Shown: in pieces, positions 4,473 to 62,510 of the stretch
How the letters are laid out: each line of letters starts with the position of its first letter
Position numbering within the stretch: the stretch's first letter is position 1
Assembly: GCF_024158035.1 (NCBI RefSeq)
Contig: NZ_JAMZEK010000005.1
Coordinates: 62,001 to 126,000, forward strand
Direction of reading: 5' to 3'
From: Dyella lutea
GTDB lineage: Bacteria > Pseudomonadota > Gammaproteobacteria > Xanthomonadales > Rhodanobacteraceae
Length of the DNA stretch: 64,000 nucleotides
Program-made: the position numbers and the translations under genes
Notes under the pieces: model-generated
What the model was told of the DNA's origin: nothing
The model's input: the letters and a program-made list of their open reading frames with translations, nothing else
Databases searched by the model: none

Positions 4473-5257
4473 GCATTTCCCCCTTGCAGGGCCGAACGGC
4501 CCTGGTCACCGGCGCCTCCAGCGGGCTCGGCATCGAGTTCGCCCGCGAGCTGGCCCGACGGGGCGCCGACCTGATCCTGGTCGCCCGCAGCGAGGCGCCG
4601 ATGCAGGCGCTCGCACAGGAGCTGCGCGCGTCCGGTCACACCGTCCACGTCAGGCCGGCCGACCTGACCGACCCCGCGGCGCGCGAGACGTTGATTGCAG
4701 GCCTGGCGGCCGAAGGCGTTGCGATCGATGTACTGGTCAACAATGCCGGTTTCGGCGTGTTCGGCGAGTTCGCCCAGACCCCGTGGCCGAAGCTGGAGGG
4801 CATGCTGGAGGTCGACGTGGTGGCCCTGACCCACCTCACCCGGCTGGTGCTGCCTGGTATGCGCGGGCGCGGATTCGGACGCGTGCTGCAGGTCGCCTCC
4901 ACCGGGGCGTTCCAGCCCACGCCCTACTACGCCGCCTACGCGGCGGCGAAAAGCTACGTACTGGAATTCAGTTACGCGATCGATGCCGAGCTGCGCGGCA
5001 GCGGCGTGCGCTGCACCGTGCTGTCGCCGGGGGTCACCGCGACCCGGTTTTTTGCCGTCTCCGGACAGCGGCCCACGCTGTATCAGCGGGTGACCCGCAT
5101 GCAGGCGCCGACGGTGGCGCGGCAGGGCGTGGCGGCAATGCTGCGGGGGCGCACCGGAGTGATCGCTGGCTGGTCCAACGCGCTGATGGCGCAGGGCACG
5201 CGCTTCATGCCGCGCCGGCTGGCCGCGCGGGTCGCGGGCCAATTGATGCGTAACTGA
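4469..5257 (+). CDS. Short-chain dehydrogenase/reductase (SDR), classical type
   Basis: A 262-residue NAD(P)-dependent oxidoreductase. It has the Rossmann motif TGASSGLG at residues 15-22, the NNAG motif, and the Ser-Tyr-Lys catalytic set around VASTGAF and YAAYAAAKSY. AAGGAG lies 8 nt upstream of the ATG, and the start overlaps the TetR stop. The substrate is not evident; SDRs of this group reduce aldehydes, ketones or lipid-derived carbonyls. The TGA stop is immediately followed by the reverse-strand stop of the neighbouring phosphatase gene (TGATCA at 5255-5260), so the genes converge with no intergenic base. Confidence 0.88.
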   Translation: MSISPLQGRTALVTGASSGLGIEFARELARRGADLILVARSEAPMQALAQELRASGHTVHVRPADLTDPAARETLIAGLAAEGVAIDVLVNNAGFGVFGEFAQTPWPKLEGMLEVDVVALTHLTRLVLPGMRGRGFGRVLQVASTGAFQPTPYYAAYAAAKSYVLEFSYAIDAELRGSGVRCTVLSPGVTATRFFAVSGQRPTLYQRVTRMQAPTVARQGVAAMLRGRTGVIAGWSNALMAQGTRFMPRRLAARVAGQLMRN

Positions 5258-54831: not shown

Positions 54832-54960
54832 GCCGGAAGCGGCGAAACGATTTCCGTTCTGTGGCTAAGCCGTGGCAGGTGCGGGTATGTGCCTTGCGCA
54901 AGGCGAAGCCACCATGCACGCTGCGCGCCACCACGAACCGGATTGCACAGGGAAACCGCC

Positions 54961-55650
54961 ATGGGACGCAGCGTCGCGATCGTCGAGGACGAACCGCTCA
55001 TCCGCGCCAACTATGTCGAGGCGCTAAACCGCTTCGGCTACGACACCCGCGGCTACGGCTCGCGGCAGGAGGCCTCGAGCGCCTTCGCGATGCGCCTGCC
55101 GGAGCTGGTGATCATCGACATCGGACTGGGCGATGAGCCCGAAGGTGGCTTCGATCTGTGCCGCGAGCTGCGTGCCAAGTCGGACACGCTGCCGATCATC
55201 TTCCTCACCGCGCGTGATTCGGATTTCGACGTGATCTCCGGCCTGCGGCTTGGGGCTGACGATTACCTCAGCAAGGACACCAGCCTGCATCAGCTCGCGG
55301 CGCGCATCGCCGCGCTGTTCCGCCGCATCGCCTCGCTGCAGGCGCCGGCGGCGAGCGAGACGGTGATCGAGCACGGACCGCTCAAGCTCGAGTCCGAACG
55401 CATGCGCATCACCTGGAACGGCGAGGAAATTCCGCTCACCGTCACCGAGTTCTGGATGGTGCACACGCTGGTGCGCTTCCCCGGTCACGTGAAGAACCGC
55501 GACCAGCTCATGCGCGAGGCCGAACTGGTCGTCGACGACGCAACCATCACCTCGCACATCAAGCGCATCCGCAAGAAATTCGTCGCGGTGGCGCCGGATT
55601 TCGACGCGATCGAAACCGTGCACGGCGTGGGCTATCGGTGGAAACCGTGA
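54961..55650 (+). CDS. OmpR/PhoB-type response regulator, dedicated-sortase-system-like subfamily
   Basis: A 229-residue regulator. The receiver has acidic pocket EDE (9-11), phosphoacceptor D53 in VIIDIGLGDEPEGGFDLCRELRA (span), and FLTARDSDFDVISGLRLGADDYLSKD. The C-terminal winged helix is ITWNGEEIPLTVTEFWMVHT and TITSHIKRIRKKF with GVGYRW at the end. The receiver resembles the subfamily named after proteobacterial dedicated sortase systems, though no sortase gene is in this window. The next gene's GTG overlaps its stop, and a histidine kinase gene follows. Confidence 0.88.
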   Translation: MGRSVAIVEDEPLIRANYVEALNRFGYDTRGYGSRQEASSAFAMRLPELVIIDIGLGDEPEGGFDLCRELRAKSDTLPIIFLTARDSDFDVISGLRLGADDYLSKDTSLHQLAARIAALFRRIASLQAPAASETVIEHGPLKLESERMRITWNGEEIPLTVTEFWMVHTLVRFPGHVKNRDQLMREAELVVDDATITSHIKRIRKKFVAVAPDFDAIETVHGVGYRWKP

Positions 55651-56225
55651 GGCATGCCTGGCTGGTTCCGGTGATCGCACTGATGCTGGCCAGCCAGGCG
55701 CTCGCCGCCGAGCGGGTCGTCGCCAGCGGTCGCGCGGACGGTAATGTGCCGGCCTGGACCGTGAGCGCACGAGCTCCGGATGGCTGGACGGCCGATTGCT
55801 GCACCTATGCCCGCGCCATCGGCGTGGACGCGGTGGTGTATCGCGGTGAGTGGAGCGGGGAGCCCCAGCGGGTGATGGTGCTCAACGTCTGGCCGGCCAG
55901 GCTGGCGTCGCTGGATGACGAACTCACGGCCGACCGGACCCATTATCTGCACCGCGATCCGGCCGGGCGCGTGCTGGCTCTTCCGATCGCGCACCCGGCG
56001 ATGCGTTGCGCAGCGAACGTCTACGAGGGCAGCGACCGGCTGGACGACATGGTCGTGTTCTGCGACCCGGGCAAGGCGTCCGGAGTCCGTCTCAGCTGGT
56101 CGATGACCCTGGCTGCCGACGACGACCAGCGTCGCGCGCTGCTGGAGGAGCTGCTGGCGCTGGTCCGGAGCACGAGCTATCGGCGCGGTGCGACGCCCCT
56201 GCCGGGGCCTGCCGCGCCGCACTGA
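55647..56225 (+). CDS. Secreted protein encoded between response regulator and kinase
   Basis: A 192-residue exported protein (signal WLVPVIALMLASQALA). The start is GTG at 55647, overlapping the regulator stop (GTGA). Mature features are WTADCCTYARAIG, PAMRCAANVYEG and VVFCDPG, four Cys able to form two disulfides. No family recognised. Its position in a two-component operon, 7 nt before the kinase start, suggests it acts in signal input or is a partner of the kinase's periplasmic domain. Confidence 0.75.
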   Translation: MRHAWLVPVIALMLASQALAAERVVASGRADGNVPAWTVSARAPDGWTADCCTYARAIGVDAVVYRGEWSGEPQRVMVLNVWPARLASLDDELTADRTHYLHRDPAGRVLALPIAHPAMRCAANVYEGSDRLDDMVVFCDPGKASGVRLSWSMTLAADDDQRRALLEELLALVRSTSYRRGATPLPGPAAPH

Positions 56226-56232
56226 CCCAGAC

Positions 56233-58254
56233 ATGACCCTGCGCCGCAAGCTGTTGCTGGTTGCCCTCTGCACCCTGGCGCTGCCGGTGGCCGGCTGGCT
56301 GTACGTGCGGCAGATGGAGAACCTGTTGCGCGATGGCCAGGCGCAGGCGCTCACCGCGTCCGCGCGCGCGGTGGCACGTAGCCTTGCGGTGGCGGGAGCC
56401 GGGCTTCCCGAGGGGGATCAAGCCTGGTACGTGCAGCCGGTGCAGACACCGATTACCGTCGATGGCTACGGCGACGACTGGGCGCCACTCACCCCCTGGA
56501 GCCAGCCGGTGGGGGCGCGCGGCAAGCTTCTGCTGGCGCAGGATGCGAGCGGTCTCTATCTGTGGCTCGATGTGCGCGACAGCCGGCGCACCCGTGCCGA
56601 CGTGGATGACCCGCTGGTGCTGCGCGCCGATCACGTGGTGCTGGCGCTGTCGCGCGGCGATCTGCAGCGGCGCTACCTGTTGGCCAGTTCCGGGCCCGGG
56701 CCGGTGGTCGCCAGGGCGCTCGACCCGCCGGTGGCGGGCCTGCCGGATTCGCTCGGCGCGCAGTGGCAGGAGGACGGCAGCGGCTACCGCATCGAGCTTC
56801 GCCTGCCTGGGAGCGCCGGTATCACCGGCGTGGGCGTGGGTGTGTTCGATCCTGCCGATGGCGGCAATCCGCTGGCGGTCGAGCAGCGCCCGTTGCTGGC
56901 CTATTCCGATGCGCTGTCGGCCGAACTCGCGCGACTCGCGCCGGACGATGTCTATGCTCGCGTGCTCTCGCCTCAGGGCTGGTTGATGGCACGCAGCGGG
57001 CGACTGCGGCCGGAGGGCGGCGGCAGGCAGCCCGGTTGGTTCGCCGCCCTGATCTACCGCTCGCTGCTGGCCGACCGGGTACAGGCAGCCGAGCCATGGA
57101 TGCAGGACACGCCGCGGCTGGAATCTCCCGAGGTCGTCCAGGCGCAACACGGGCAACCAGCGGCGGTCTGGCGTGAGGGCGAGACGCGCGCTTCGGTGGT
57201 GCTCGACGCGGCCGTGCCGATCGAGCGCGGCGGCAAGGTGCATGGCGTGTTGTTGCTGGAACAAACCAGCCGGGCCGTGCCGCTGTTGGCGAACCGGGCA
57301 TTGTTTGGCCTGCTGCTGACCAGCTTTGCCGTGCTGCTGGTGGCCGGCGGCATCCTGCTCGCGTTCGCCACCCGGCTCAGCCTGCGGCTGGGCAAGTTGC
57401 GCGACGCGGCCGAGCGGGCACAGGCAGCCGACGGCCGTCTGGACGGACTGTTCCAGCGCGGCCGCTTTCCGATGAGCGATGCCCCGGACGAGGTCGGCGA
57501 CCTCGCACGCAGCTTCGAAAAGCTGTTCGAGGCGGTCGGCGGCTACACCGACTATCTGCGTACGCTGGCATCCAAGCTCTCGCACGAGCTGAACACGCCG
57601 ATCGCGATCGTCAAATCCTCTCTGGACAACCTCGAGCACGCGTTGGAGGCCGGGGGCGGCGTGCCGCCGGAGGCAGCGTCCTACCTGGCGCGTGCCCGCG
57701 ACGGTACCGCCCGGCTCGGCATGCTGGTGCGGGCGATGAGCGAGGCCAGCCGGATGGAGCGCGCGATCGCCGCCGCCGAGCCGGAGGACGTGGACCTGCG
57801 AGAGGTGGTGCGCGGCTGCGCCGAGTCGTACCGGGCACTCGCCGGCACGCGCAGCTTCGAATGCGTGCTGCCGCCGACGCCACTGCCGTTCCACGGCGCG
57901 CCCGAACTGGTCGCGCAGGCGCTGGACAAGCTGTTCGACAACGCATTGTCGTTTACCCCGGCGGACGGCTGGTTGCGGCTGGAGCTGCGTCCGCTCGAGC
58001 GTGGCGCGGAGATCACCCTTGCCAACCAGGGGCCGCCGCTACCGGAGGCCATGCAGGGGCGGCTGTTCGATTCGCTGGTCAGCCTGCGCGACAAGGCCAC
58101 GCCGGGCGATGCGCCGCACCTGGGCCTGGGCCTCTACGTGGTACGGCTGGTAGCCGAACGACACGGCGGGCAGGCGCTGGCCCGCAACATCGACGACGGG
58201 CAGGGCGTCGCCTTCACCCTGCAACTGCACGGGATGGCGCGCGCGCGGCTATAG
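56233..58254 (+). CDS. Sensor histidine kinase with large extracytoplasmic CBM9-like sensor
   Basis: A 673-residue kinase. TM1 is near residues 8-24. The about 340-residue periplasmic region contains ITVDGYGDDWAPLTPWSQP, LYLWLDVRDSRRTR and RIELRLPGSAGITGVGVGVFD, resembling CBM9-like or DOMON-like carbohydrate/heme-binding folds. TM2 is near 360-382, then HAMP-like sequence, H-box TLASKLSHELNTPIAIVKSS (H451), N-box LDKLFDNALSFTPADG and G-box LGLGLYVVRLVAERHGG. It should phosphorylate the preceding regulator. The sensor fold is inferred by pattern. The last stop base abuts the stop of the convergent TonB gene (CTATAG). Confidence 0.87.
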   Translation: MTLRRKLLLVALCTLALPVAGWLYVRQMENLLRDGQAQALTASARAVARSLAVAGAGLPEGDQAWYVQPVQTPITVDGYGDDWAPLTPWSQPVGARGKLLLAQDASGLYLWLDVRDSRRTRADVDDPLVLRADHVVLALSRGDLQRRYLLASSGPGPVVARALDPPVAGLPDSLGAQWQEDGSGYRIELRLPGSAGITGVGVGVFDPADGGNPLAVEQRPLLAYSDALSAELARLAPDDVYARVLSPQGWLMARSGRLRPEGGGRQPGWFAALIYRSLLADRVQAAEPWMQDTPRLESPEVVQAQHGQPAAVWREGETRASVVLDAAVPIERGGKVHGVLLLEQTSRAVPLLANRALFGLLLTSFAVLLVAGGILLAFATRLSLRLGKLRDAAERAQAADGRLDGLFQRGRFPMSDAPDEVGDLARSFEKLFEAVGGYTDYLRTLASKLSHELNTPIAIVKSSLDNLEHALEAGGGVPPEAASYLARARDGTARLGMLVRAMSEASRMERAIAAAEPEDVDLREVVRGCAESYRALAGTRSFECVLPPTPLPFHGAPELVAQALDKLFDNALSFTPADGWLRLELRPLERGAEITLANQGPPLPEAMQGRLFDSLVSLRDKATPGDAPHLGLGLYVVRLVAERHGGQALARNIDDGQGVAFTLQLHGMARARL

Positions 58255-59514
58255 CGTGGGCTTGTCCAGGTGGAAGCGCACCGGCACGCGGGTGCTCGCC
58301 GTGGTGGCATGGCCGTCCGGTCCCAGTGCGCGAAAGCGCCACTGCCGGGCCGCATCCAGTGCGGCCGCATCCAGTTCCGCGAAGCCGCTGGATTGCGCGA
58401 CCCGGATGTCCAGCGGGCTGCCGTCCGAACCGATCGTGAAAGCCAGCAGCACCGTACCCTCATGGCGTTGGCGCACGGCTTCGGCCGGGTATTTCGGCGC
58501 GGTACGGCTGACGATCTCCACCCTCGCCGCGCCGGGCGCACCGCCGTAGGTGAGCGCCCAGCCGCCGTCGCCCGGCTGCAGGCGCACGCGGTAGTGCTCC
58601 GCCGGATTGCACGAGGTGCCGGGGCTCTCGCAGCGCTGCACCGTGTAATCGAGCTGACCCTGCGCATCGAGAGAGAAATCCAGCCGGGTATGTCGAGGGT
58701 CGACCGGCGGGTCCAGCGGCGTGCCGACGAAGACGCCGTCGTGGAACACATACAGCTGCACCGCGTCCGCGCGGCAGCGATCATCGCGTCCGACCACCGC
58801 CTCGGCCACATAGTTGTCTCCCTGGCGCTGGGCGCGACCGGTGAGCGAGCGCTCGCCTCCGGCCAGGAGGAAGCGGTCCTCGTCGCCAGTTGCCGCGGCG
58901 CCGGCCGCGTCCGGGCAATGCGTGGTCGGTGCAGCGGCCGCCATCGGCTGCAGCGGGCGTGGCATGTAGTGCACCGGAGGCGTGGCGGGCGGGGCAGGTG
59001 TGCGCAGGTGTAGCCAGATGCCGGCCAGGGCAATCACGACCGCCGCAGCCGCCAGCCAGCGTCCATGGCGACGCAGCAACCCCTTCGGCGGTTGCGGTTG
59101 CGCCGGCAGCGGTGGTGGTTCGCCAGCGCTCGGCAGCGGCGGAGGCGCGATCGACGAGGGCAGGTCCTGCCAGCTGTCGTCACCGTCATGGCACCAGCGG
59201 TCGGCCGGCTTGCCGAAACGGCCCAGCACGCTGTCGGGCAGCGGCCCCAGCACGCGCTCGCCACGCAGCAGCCAGATCAGCGGCTGTCCGCCGGGTAGGG
59301 TCTCGGCCTGCGCGCCCAGCTCGCCGAGCTGCCCGCGCTGGCGCGTCGCGGTATCGACATCGAGACCCTGGCGAATGATCAGCGGCGCCCGCTGCCACAC
59401 CTTCTGCTCGAACGCCTCGGGAGTCATGCCGAATGCCGCGGCCAGCCGGGCGCGGGCGGCCGTAGGGCCCGGATCGGTGAATTCGCCGGTGAGGATCAGG
59501 CAGTACGTGTCCAT
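58249..59514 (-). CDS. Membrane-anchored TonB-C domain protein with cytosolic N-terminal domain
   Basis: A 421-residue protein. Residues 1-120 form a cytosolic domain (TGEFTDPGPTAARARLAAAF, LLRGERVLGPLPDSVLGRFG, WCHDGDDSWQDL) that vaguely resembles GYF_2. A Pro-rich stretch, one TM (WLAAAAVVIALAGIWLHL) and a periplasmic part with two Cys pairs follow. The C-terminal TonB-C domain is VSRTAPKYPAEAVRQRHEGT ... DGSPLDIRVAQSSGF. The Cys-containing middle domain is not part of TonB. It is the downstream neighbour of the GYF-pilin fusion gene on the same strand; a joint envelope role is likely. Confidence 0.78.
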   Translation of the reverse strand: MDTYCLILTGEFTDPGPTAARARLAAAFGMTPEAFEQKVWQRAPLIIRQGLDVDTATRQRGQLGELGAQAETLPGGQPLIWLLRGERVLGPLPDSVLGRFGKPADRWCHDGDDSWQDLPSSIAPPPLPSAGEPPPLPAQPQPPKGLLRRHGRWLAAAAVVIALAGIWLHLRTPAPPATPPVHYMPRPLQPMAAAAPTTHCPDAAGAAATGDEDRFLLAGGERSLTGRAQRQGDNYVAEAVVGRDDRCRADAVQLYVFHDGVFVGTPLDPPVDPRHTRLDFSLDAQGQLDYTVQRCESPGTSCNPAEHYRVRLQPGDGGWALTYGGAPGAARVEIVSRTAPKYPAEAVRQRHEGTVLLAFTIGSDGSPLDIRVAQSSGFAELDAAALDAARQWRFRALGPDGHATTASTRVPVRFHLDKPTL

Positions 59515-59611: not shown

Positions 59612-60751
59612 TCAGGGGCGACAGCGGACCGGCAGGTACTGTGGCCGGATCGTGGTCTCGGGGCTGTCGCAGCTCCATTGCAGTTGTCCTTGGCCATCGC
59701 GGTGCGGTTCCAGCACCAGGACCTTGTCGCGCAGCGTGGCAGTCGCCTGCGGCGAGTCGAAGTGGATCACCAGCTTGCCCGCGTCCACGTCGACGGCGGA
59801 CACGTAGCGGCCCATCAGCGAGTCCGCCGCGCCGATTCCCGCGTCGGCGTTGTCCTTCGGCAGGTCGCCATGCCGGGCGTAGTACTCGGCCACGGCCGTC
59901 TGGGCGCCGCGGGCGACCGAAAAAGCCTCCGATACCTGTGCCCGCACCACGTAACCCTGGTAAGACGGAATGGCGATCGCGGCGAGAATGGCCAGTCCGA
60001 AGGGAAACGCCCACAGCAGATAGAATACGCCTTTCGGCGGTGGCGGGGCGTTGCGGCCGGTCTCCTTCCAGCGGGCCAGCCAGCGTAGCTGGCCCTGCAG
60101 GTAATACATGTTGAAGAAGAACAGGGTGATCCCGCCGATCCTCACCGTGGGGTTCCCGCGGCTGAAGTTCCGCTCCAGCGAGCCGGCCATCGAGAAGTAC
60201 GCCGCGATGAACAGCACGAAATACGCCAGCATGAGCAGCGACCCGAGCATCGCGGTGCCGCTTGCCGATTGCCCGCGCGGGGCCGCGCCGGCGATGACCA
60301 AGCCGTAGCCGAGAACGAAACTTCCGAAGGCCAGCCCGAGCAGCAGCGTGGCGCGGCTGCGTGGATCGACCTTGCGCACCCAGCTGGACTGGACGAACGG
60401 CCAGATCAGGCCGAACAGGCCGAAGGTGACCATCACCAGCAGCAGTAGTACGCCCCAGTGCATCGAGGGCGGGGCGGGCAGGTCCGCGCGTCGCCGCTCG
60501 GATGCATCGGACGGGTCGCCGCTGAAGAAGTTCGCGGGCGGTGCGGCCGGAGCGCTGAACGGTGGTGGCGCGGCCGGGGTCAGGTCGGGGAACACCTGCG
60601 CCAGCGGTAGCCAGGTGGCCATGCCGTCGCGCCAGGCCAGCGTCTCCGGGTCGAAGCGGCCCTCGCCGATCCACTGGCGGACGTTCGTCTCGCTGTAGGG
60701 TCCGAACTTCTGGCCGTTCCGGCCGATCCAGTATTTGGCCTCGCTACTCAC
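59612..60751 (-). CDS. GYF_2 (DUF4339)-multi-TM-type IV pilin fusion protein
   Basis: A 379-residue protein. Residues 1-60 are a GYF_2/DUF4339 domain (YWIGRNGQKFGPYSETNVRQ, PETLAWRDGMATWLPLAQV). A Pro-rich linker precedes about five TM helices (from VLLLLVMVTFGLFGLIWPF). The C-terminal about 130 residues are type IV pilin: ILAAIAIPSYQGYVVRAQVS, AEYYARHGDLP, then two Cys in WSCDSPETTIRPQYLPVRCRP (typical pilin disulfide). The prepilin leader and Glu5 are absent, so it cannot be processed as a pilin. Start is GTG at 60751 with AAGGAG 8 nt upstream. Confidence 0.85.
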   Translation of the reverse strand: MSSEAKYWIGRNGQKFGPYSETNVRQWIGEGRFDPETLAWRDGMATWLPLAQVFPDLTPAAPPPFSAPAAPPANFFSGDPSDASERRRADLPAPPSMHWGVLLLLVMVTFGLFGLIWPFVQSSWVRKVDPRSRATLLLGLAFGSFVLGYGLVIAGAAPRGQSASGTAMLGSLLMLAYFVLFIAAYFSMAGSLERNFSRGNPTVRIGGITLFFFNMYYLQGQLRWLARWKETGRNAPPPPKGVFYLLWAFPFGLAILAAIAIPSYQGYVVRAQVSEAFSVARGAQTAVAEYYARHGDLPKDNADAGIGAADSLMGRYVSAVDVDAGKLVIHFDSPQATATLRDKVLVLEPHRDGQGQLQWSCDSPETTIRPQYLPVRCRP

Positions 60752-60990
60752 TGCAACACTCCTTTCCATGGTGATCGACAGGCCCGTTCCACCGGGTCGG
60801 CGGTCGGGTATGCGAGGTTCTCCGGGATGTCCGTCTGCGGGCACATGCGCGCCGCCGCGGCGACACCCGACAAGTGCCGCCCGGACCAAGGGCGATGGAT
60901 CGGTGACCCCCTGAGCTCCCCCCTCACGCAGCCTAGGAGCCCCGCCCCGCCGCCGCAACACCGGCGCGCCGTGCCCCGGGCCCGACGGGC

Positions 60991-61034: not shown

Positions 61035-62510
61035 GTGATTTCCCGCGACGAATTCGACGCGCTGGTGGCCCAGGGCCACACGCGCATCCCCCTGGTACGC
61101 GAGGTGTTCTCCGACCTCGACACGCCACTGTCGGTGTACCTGAAGCTGGCCGATGGCCCGTACACGTTCCTGTTCGAATCGGTCGAGGGCGGGGCGACCT
61201 GGGGACGCTATTCGATCATCGGCCTGCCGGCACGCCGTGTGTACCGCCTGCGGGGGCACGAGCTGGAGGTGGAGGACGCCGGCGAGGTCACCGAGCGTCG
61301 CCAGCTGGCCGATCCGCTGGCCGAGATCGAGAAACTCCGCCAGCAGTACGACGTGCCGCGGTTGCCGCAGCTGCCGGCCTTCTCGGGCGGCTTGGTCGGT
61401 TACTTCGGCTTCGAGACGATCGGCTACATCGAGCCGCGACTGGCGCAGTGGGATCGCGCCGACGAGCTGGGCACGCCCGACGTGCTGCTGATGCTGGCCG
61501 AGGAAGTGGCGGTGTTCGACAACCTCAAGGGCCGGCTGTACCTGATCGTGCACGCCGATCCCTCGCAGCCGCACGCCTACGCGCAGGCGCAGCGCCGGCT
61601 CGACGCGCTGGTCTATCGCCTTCGCCAGGGCGGCGCCTCGTATCCGCAGCTCACGCAGTCGGTGGCGCTGGACGAAAGCGACTTCAAATCCTCGTTCACC
61701 AAGGCCGAGTTCGAGGCGATGGTGGAGAAGGCGAAGGAATACATCCGCGCCGGCGACATCTTCCAGGTGGTGCCCTCGCAGCGCCTCAGCGTGGGCTTCA
61801 ACGCGCGGCCGGTGGACGTCTACCGCGCGCTGCGCGCGTTGAACCCGTCGCCGTATATGTACTTCGTCGACCTTGGCAAGACGCAGATCGTCGGCTCCTC
61901 GCCGGAGATCCTGGCGCGGCTGAAGGACGGCAAGGTCGTCGTTCGCCCGATCGCCGGCACGCGCAAGCGCGGCGCCGACGAGGCCGAGGATGCCGCGCTC
62001 GAGGCCGAGCTGCTGGCCGATCCGAAGGAGCGCGCCGAGCACGTGATGCTGATCGATCTTGGCCGCAACGATGTGGGCCGCATCACCGAGACGGGCAGCG
62101 TGGCGGTCACCGAGTCCTTCGTGGTCGAGCGCTACTCGCACGTGATGCACATCGTCAGCCAGGTCGAGGGCGAGTTGCGCGACGGGCTGTCCTACATGGA
62201 CGTGCTCAAGGCCACTTTCCCGGCCGGCACGGTCAGCGGTGCGCCGAAGATCCGCGCGCTGGAAATCATCCAGGAGCTGGAGCCGGTCAAGCGCAACATC
62301 TACGCCGGCGCGATCGGCTGGATCGGCTGGTGGGGCGACGCCGACACCGCCATTGCGATCCGCACCGCGGTGATCCAGGACGGCCGCCTGCACGTGCAGG
62401 CCGGCGCCGGCATCGTCTACGACTCCGATCCCGCATCGGAGTGGGAGGAGACGATGAACAAGGGCCGCGCGCTGTTCCGCGCCGTGGCCCAGGCGGCGAA
62501 AGGACTGTGA
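61035..62510 (+). CDS. trpE: Anthranilate synthase component I
   Basis: A 491-residue TrpE. N-terminal feedback region has LESVEGG-type sequence FLFESVEGGATWGRYSIIGL. The catalytic chorismate/Mg site includes DIFQVVPSQRLS, NPSPYMYFVD, IVGSSPEILARLKDGKVVVRPIAGTRKRG (span), DLGRNDVGRI and TFPAGTVSGAPKIRALEII. It makes anthranilate from chorismate and glutamine-derived ammonia. GTG start at 61035. The partner trpG is not in this window; the next gene is a secreted protein, unlike common trpE-trpG order. Confidence 0.97.
   Translation: MISRDEFDALVAQGHTRIPLVREVFSDLDTPLSVYLKLADGPYTFLFESVEGGATWGRYSIIGLPARRVYRLRGHELEVEDAGEVTERRQLADPLAEIEKLRQQYDVPRLPQLPAFSGGLVGYFGFETIGYIEPRLAQWDRADELGTPDVLLMLAEEVAVFDNLKGRLYLIVHADPSQPHAYAQAQRRLDALVYRLRQGGASYPQLTQSVALDESDFKSSFTKAEFEAMVEKAKEYIRAGDIFQVVPSQRLSVGFNARPVDVYRALRALNPSPYMYFVDLGKTQIVGSSPEILARLKDGKVVVRPIAGTRKRGADEAEDAALEAELLADPKERAEHVMLIDLGRNDVGRITETGSVAVTESFVVERYSHVMHIVSQVEGELRDGLSYMDVLKATFPAGTVSGAPKIRALEIIQELEPVKRNIYAGAIGWIGWWGDADTAIAIRTAVIQDGRLHVQAGAGIVYDSDPASEWEETMNKGRALFRAVAQAAKGL

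Follow-up and report, generated by a model that had tools for sequence, protein, structure and literature searches.

Type IV pilins are usually understood as cleavable filament subunits, whose Glu5 is needed for docking into the filament. Cytosolic GYF domains are known from a different setting, GltJ/AgmX of Myxococcus, in which a GYF/zinc-ribbon part is followed by a transmembrane (TM) segment and a periplasmic TonB-C-like end; GltJ is not known to have a pilin head. Two proteins from related bacteria come closer to the one described here. XAC3805 of Xanthomonas citri 306 carries a DUF4339 (GYF_2) annotation, is pilin-like, lacks a prepilin leader and is encoded well away from the pil cluster (PMC10333488). 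A further leaderless pilin-like protein is AZ78_3612 of Lysobacter capsici. The passages that deal with these two proteins mention neither a fused layout nor a role, and the carrier may be an RDD domain, as in the Xanthomonadaceae examples given below, and not a DUF4234-like core. Literature searches on GYF, DUF2628 or RDD together with pilin returned the XAC3805 papers only, with nothing on mechanism. The leaderless GYF_2-pilin oddity is thus partly known and uncharacterised; what is new, as far as these searches reach, is a series of architectures, their occurrence on several carriers, a general loss of Glu5 and a Rosetta-stone link to a second gene.

The gene that we analysed lies on a 64,000-nucleotide stretch of the Dyella lutea genome (the window; NZ_JAMZEK010000005.1, positions 62,001 to 126,000). 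Its product runs from a GYF_2 domain through a proline-rich linker and a multi-TM module to the alpha-1 helix and head of a type IVa pilin (Table 1). An earlier note, made from the window's sequence, had proposed a GYF-like domain at one end and a pilin head with a disulfide Cys pair at the other, and domain searches bore out both: PF14237 scores 51.4 bits against a cut-off of 25.8, and the full Pilin model (PF00114) matches at an E value of 8.5e-19. The score for ComP_DUS, the family of the ComP DNA-uptake minor pilin, is below the Pfam gathering score (16.6 versus 27.3 bits). The membrane module is harder to place. It reaches 17.2 bits against DUF4234 (gathering score, 25.3), one relative reaches 23.2, and when the class and order were sampled, no convincing match appeared outside its own family.

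Table 1. Features of the fusion gene and its downstream neighbour (window coordinates; aa, residues of the product)
Feature	Position	Strand	Residues	Remarks
Downstream neighbour	58249..59514	-	421 aa	cytosolic 1-120, PPPLP-rich segment, TM 154-172, periplasmic region, TonB_C 339-416
Neighbour's N-terminal cytosolic domain	59155..59514	-		fused to GYF-TM-pilin in genome G120 (L086)
GYF_2 - multi-TM - leaderless pilin fusion gene	59612..60751	-	379 aa + stop	GTG start; ORF exact
Pilin head PF00114 with Cys361/Cys377	59618..59947	-	269-378	Pfam, structure match, conserved Cys pair
Last TM helix running on as pilin alpha-1	59870..60031	-	241-294	without G-1/E5; pilin identity from about pilin residue 13-14
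Polytopic membrane module	60032..60463	-	97-240	hydrophobic segments 101-119, 136-154, 168-186; DUF4234 E 0.0056, sub-cut-off
Proline-rich cytosolic linker, PAAPPPFSAPAAPP	60518..60583	-	57-78	PPP or PPxPP in 29/29 GYF-bearing relatives
GYF_2 domain	60593..60733	-	7-53	Pfam PF14237 E 9.5e-14; GltJ GYF structure 7z3c by sequence and Foldseek
Probable ribosome-binding site AAAGGAG for the GTG start	60759..60765	-		read from sequence

Structural comparison agreed with these assignments. In a search of PDB sequences, residues 253-367 aligned with residues 13-126 of mature Neisseria PilE (E value, 4e-22), and the N terminus matched the GltJ GYF domain 7z3c (E value, 1.9e-5). An AlphaFold model built from four sequences, with a mean pLDDT of 61 and a low-confidence TM part, places an unbroken helix at residues 241-294, the length of a pilin alpha-1, ahead of the head (head pLDDT, about 73-88). 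PilE was the top structural match to this model (Foldseek E value, 5e-9; VIA Z score, 14.3, with model residues 241-379 on chain residues 1-153), so the pilin fold expected for the C terminus was found. The GltJ GYF domain and the proline-rich-peptide complex 3fma were also among the fold matches. Matches to the TM region (model residues 125-198; Z scores of about 7-9) were weak, and we took them as generic helix matches. The earlier note had seen just the end of an alpha-1 helix in this protein. That holds for the sequence, where recognisable identity starts near pilin residue 13-14, but not for the model, in which the helix has its full length; there, the module's last TM helix stands in for the first 13 or so residues of alpha-1.

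In an ungapped alignment on P22 of the pilins (P262 here), K240 falls at position -1 and L245 at position 5, and both features of a prepilin leader are therefore absent, as had been proposed. A type IVa pilin has a short leader that closes with Gly-1, with a hydrophobic residue at +1; here some 240 residues stand before alpha-1 and the last of them is Lys, and Leu245 takes the place of the Glu at +5. The loss of Glu5 is general. The P22-register comparison comprised 42 rows, and after exclusion of L064 (misplaced match) and L114 (lipoprotein carrier), no acidic residue stands at or near +5 in any of the 40 members with a membrane carrier (DUF4234-like, RDD or DUF2628). The canonical GFTLIEL motif is present in free pilins from these genomes and from relatives. 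Compared with Neisseria PilE and Pseudomonas PilA, the fusion protein thus shares the head fold, the alpha-1 helix and the C-terminal Cys pair (C361/C377, conserved across heads) but lacks the cleavage site and Glu5, and it has a multi-TM anchor and a cytosolic domain in addition. Could the TM module instead be an extra-long leader, cut near K240-G241 to release the head as a pilus subunit? A K-G pair does stand at the expected place in many members, but Gly occupies position -1 in only 7 of the 42 rows, K-A, K-V, K-L and other pairs replace K-G, head-less relatives have K-G too, and Glu5 is missing; we regard such a cryptic prepilin as extremely improbable. A PilD site at K-G was rejected, being unconserved and present where there is no head. 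The permanent membrane anchor that had been envisaged for the head is supported.

The fusion is not an artefact of assembly joining two genes, because the order of its parts is kept in each of the four genomes of the genus (75-91% identity to the window protein), Dyella ginsengisoli LA-4 among them, and in several other genera of Rhodanobacteraceae (44-55% identity). An identical junction in the four congeneric genomes and in other genera rules out a misjoined contig. Four architectures occur in the family: GYF-core-head, GYF-core with an alpha-1 stub, GYF-core, and core-head lacking GYF. Mapped on the core tree, these labels require 5 changes, compared to 18.9 when labels are shuffled. Thirteen of 16 fused heads group together apart from free PilA, with moderate support, and three long-branched heads fall outside; this pattern is best read as one old capture that was inherited vertically. 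In genus g16, head-less GYF-core paralogues (L083, L084, L087, L092) lie within a conserved cluster of about 10 genes.

The head is cut to an alpha-1 stub or absent in several relatives and is therefore not always needed, which raises the possibility that it is an expendable leftover on a GYF-membrane protein. At least two lineages have a shortened head or none, GYF has been lost once, and in Rhodanobacter sp. L36 (L009:4001-5199) the fusion is split, the membrane part ending at 4897 and the head lying in a separate overlapping frame. Against such a leftover, purifying selection acts on head, alpha-1, core and GYF alike, dN/dS of the head is below 1 throughout (0.14-0.51), and most heads have been kept as one lineage across many genera. 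We consider this explanation very unlikely. On DUF4234-like carriers, C-terminal alpha-1 stubs (L027-L029, L036, L071, L073) end soon after IPxYQxYVxR.

Leaderless pilin heads were also found on other carriers, in limited samples from which carrier frequencies cannot be derived. Plasmid records led to a zinc-ribbon-DUF2628-pilin protein of Variovorax (WP_068674268.1), and a class-wide search added one more (L137). In the Variovorax protein a polytopic membrane domain is likewise joined to a leaderless head at the same point of alpha-1, but a zinc ribbon takes the place of GYF and the membrane domain is unrelated. A search of Xanthomonadaceae returned zinc-ribbon-RDD-pilin (L157), RDD-pilin (L160) and GYF-RDD-pilin (L168, L170, L171) proteins, together with GYF-RDD proteins that end in an alpha-1-like stub (L174, L175, L177, L178); D. 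lutea itself encodes a head-less GYF-RDD protein. On DUF4234-like, RDD and DUF2628 carriers alike, recognisable pilin sequence begins near residue 13-14 (ILAAIAIPxYQ). Retention, on two unrelated membrane carriers (RDD and DUF4234-like), of stubs that end soon after IPxYQxYVxR suggests that the stub itself may matter. A fourth carrier, found in Rhodanobacteraceae and Xanthomonadaceae, is a protein of about 720 residues with a lipobox-like N terminus and a C-terminal pilin head (putative lipoproteins at L136:3762-5918 and L212:760-2967, both on the minus strand, and at L213 and L134); its large N-terminal part has no Pfam match. It is a different case, with the head following a presumed periplasmic region and Asp at the +5 register in one member.

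The recurrence of the head on several unrelated carriers suggests that it has been reused in the periplasm as a fixed domain for docking or sensing. We would tentatively go further, at rather long odds: tethered leaderless pilin heads may make up a general class of envelope proteins that has gone unrecognised, built independently on DUF4234-like, RDD, DUF2628 and lipoprotein carriers, whose members would act as non-polymerising pilin receptors or regulators linking the periplasmic state of pilins or pili to cytosolic GYF or zinc-ribbon adaptors.

How closely such heads are tied to the pilus is a separate matter. The fused head is 39% identical to PilA of its own genome, and within its genus, PilA from the same genome takes rank 12, 13, 15 and 8 of 15 in the four genomes as a match to the head. 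Over all genomes the own-PilA mean exceeds that of most permutations (32 of 5,000 as high), which shared ancestry can explain. The earlier suggestion that the protein is a decoy for the pilus therefore loses ground and finds no support here; the other roles that the note named, sensor and assembly scaffold, may still apply. In a broader form of that idea, a tethered pilin would cap or compete at the pilus assembly platform as a negative regulator or decoy. The full-length alpha-1 of the model and the pilin-like head would suit this role; the absence of Glu5 in all proteins compared, and a head no more like its own PilA than like those of others in its genus, make it unlikely. Failure to track the own PilA also speaks for the main rival to our reading, in which the head serves as a general-purpose binding domain in the periplasm, with DNA, polysaccharide or cell wall as examples of what it might bind, and has no tie to the pilus left. 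The several unrelated carriers, lipoproteins included, agree with this, as does the distance from pilus genes: in the neighbourhoods surveyed, fusion genes were not near any. A generic binding domain would not need the AAIAIPxYQxY motif, which is kept in head-less stubs on two unrelated carriers, where it may alternatively belong to the last TM. On balance we hold this rival to be possible but not probable.

The downstream neighbour has the parallel layout that the earlier note described, a cytosolic domain, one TM and a periplasmic region ending in TonB_C, and the two genes had been proposed to form a signalling pair. They are adjacent in all four genomes of the genus but, among the neighbourhoods surveyed, nowhere else, and a conserved operon was rejected on that ground. 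In genome G120, which belongs to another genus, the neighbour's N-terminal domain and GYF-core-pilin are however encoded together in a single 521-residue ORF (BLAST E value with the window protein, 4.5e-12; hhalign probability, 98.7%), and this Rosetta-stone fusion is the best evidence that both gene types act together. The signalling pair is thus partly supported, with adjacency within the genus and the G120 fusion in its favour and the lack of adjacency elsewhere against it. The second half of the neighbour's N-terminal domain could itself be a GYF in degenerate form (hhalign, 70%). GltJ/AgmX, with its cytosolic GYF/zinc-ribbon part and periplasmic TonB-C-like end, resembles this gene pair split in two; the fusion protein shares with it the fold of the GYF domain (7z3c) and falls far short of the NCBIfam GltJ equivalog cut-off (21.8 versus 450). 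Outside the genus, the slot between trpE and a histidine kinase holds one gene type or the other, or two membrane-pilin genes in tandem; across species (L078, L081, L090, L094-L097), GYF-TM-pilin, TM-pilin and TonB-C-type genes appear there in varied combinations. Next to the pair in the window (54889-58254) are a response regulator and a histidine kinase of the 'proteobacterial dedicated sortase system', with TIGR03787 above its cut-off and TIGR03785 below.

Taken together, we read the fusion protein as an adaptor or sensor that does not polymerise, presents a pilin head on a membrane tether and has a cytosolic domain predicted to bind polyproline, and we give this reading a probability of roughly one-half. 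A type IVa pilin, from about residue 14 of alpha-1 through the head, would have been captured onto the last TM of a multi-TM GYF protein. Prepilin peptidase is not expected to release the product, which also lacks Glu5 and so should not enter a filament, and its head would stay displayed in the periplasm. Two features point to that location, the conserved Cys pair and the positive loop at residues 223-240, ahead of the last TM. Loop 120-135 is also positive, though periplasmic under a simple topology model, and the number of membrane spans is therefore uncertain. In the periplasm or within the membrane, the head, alpha-1 or both could bind a partner. On the cytosolic side, the domain is of the bacterial GYF_2 type, and the proline motif stands straight after it in every GYF-bearing relative examined. 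Eukaryotic GYF domains bind PPP/PPxPP-like motifs; by this analogy, and with 3fma among the fold matches, a polyproline ligand, either within the protein or on a partner, is likely. Binding of the protein's own linker might represent an off state, and binding of a partner, such as the neighbour's PPPLP stretches, would be the other option; PAAPPPF and APPPLPSAGEPPPLP are candidate peptides. The protein would then act as a trans-envelope adaptor or sensor.

Conserved proteins that combine an unprocessable head with alpha-1 would mean that the pilin fold has a second use, as a fixed receptor or adaptor domain. Tethered heads would account for genes such as XAC3805 that bear a 'pilin' or 'pilA' annotation without encoding pilus subunits, and they offer defined candidates for relaying the state of the pilus or envelope to the cytosol in Xanthomonadales.
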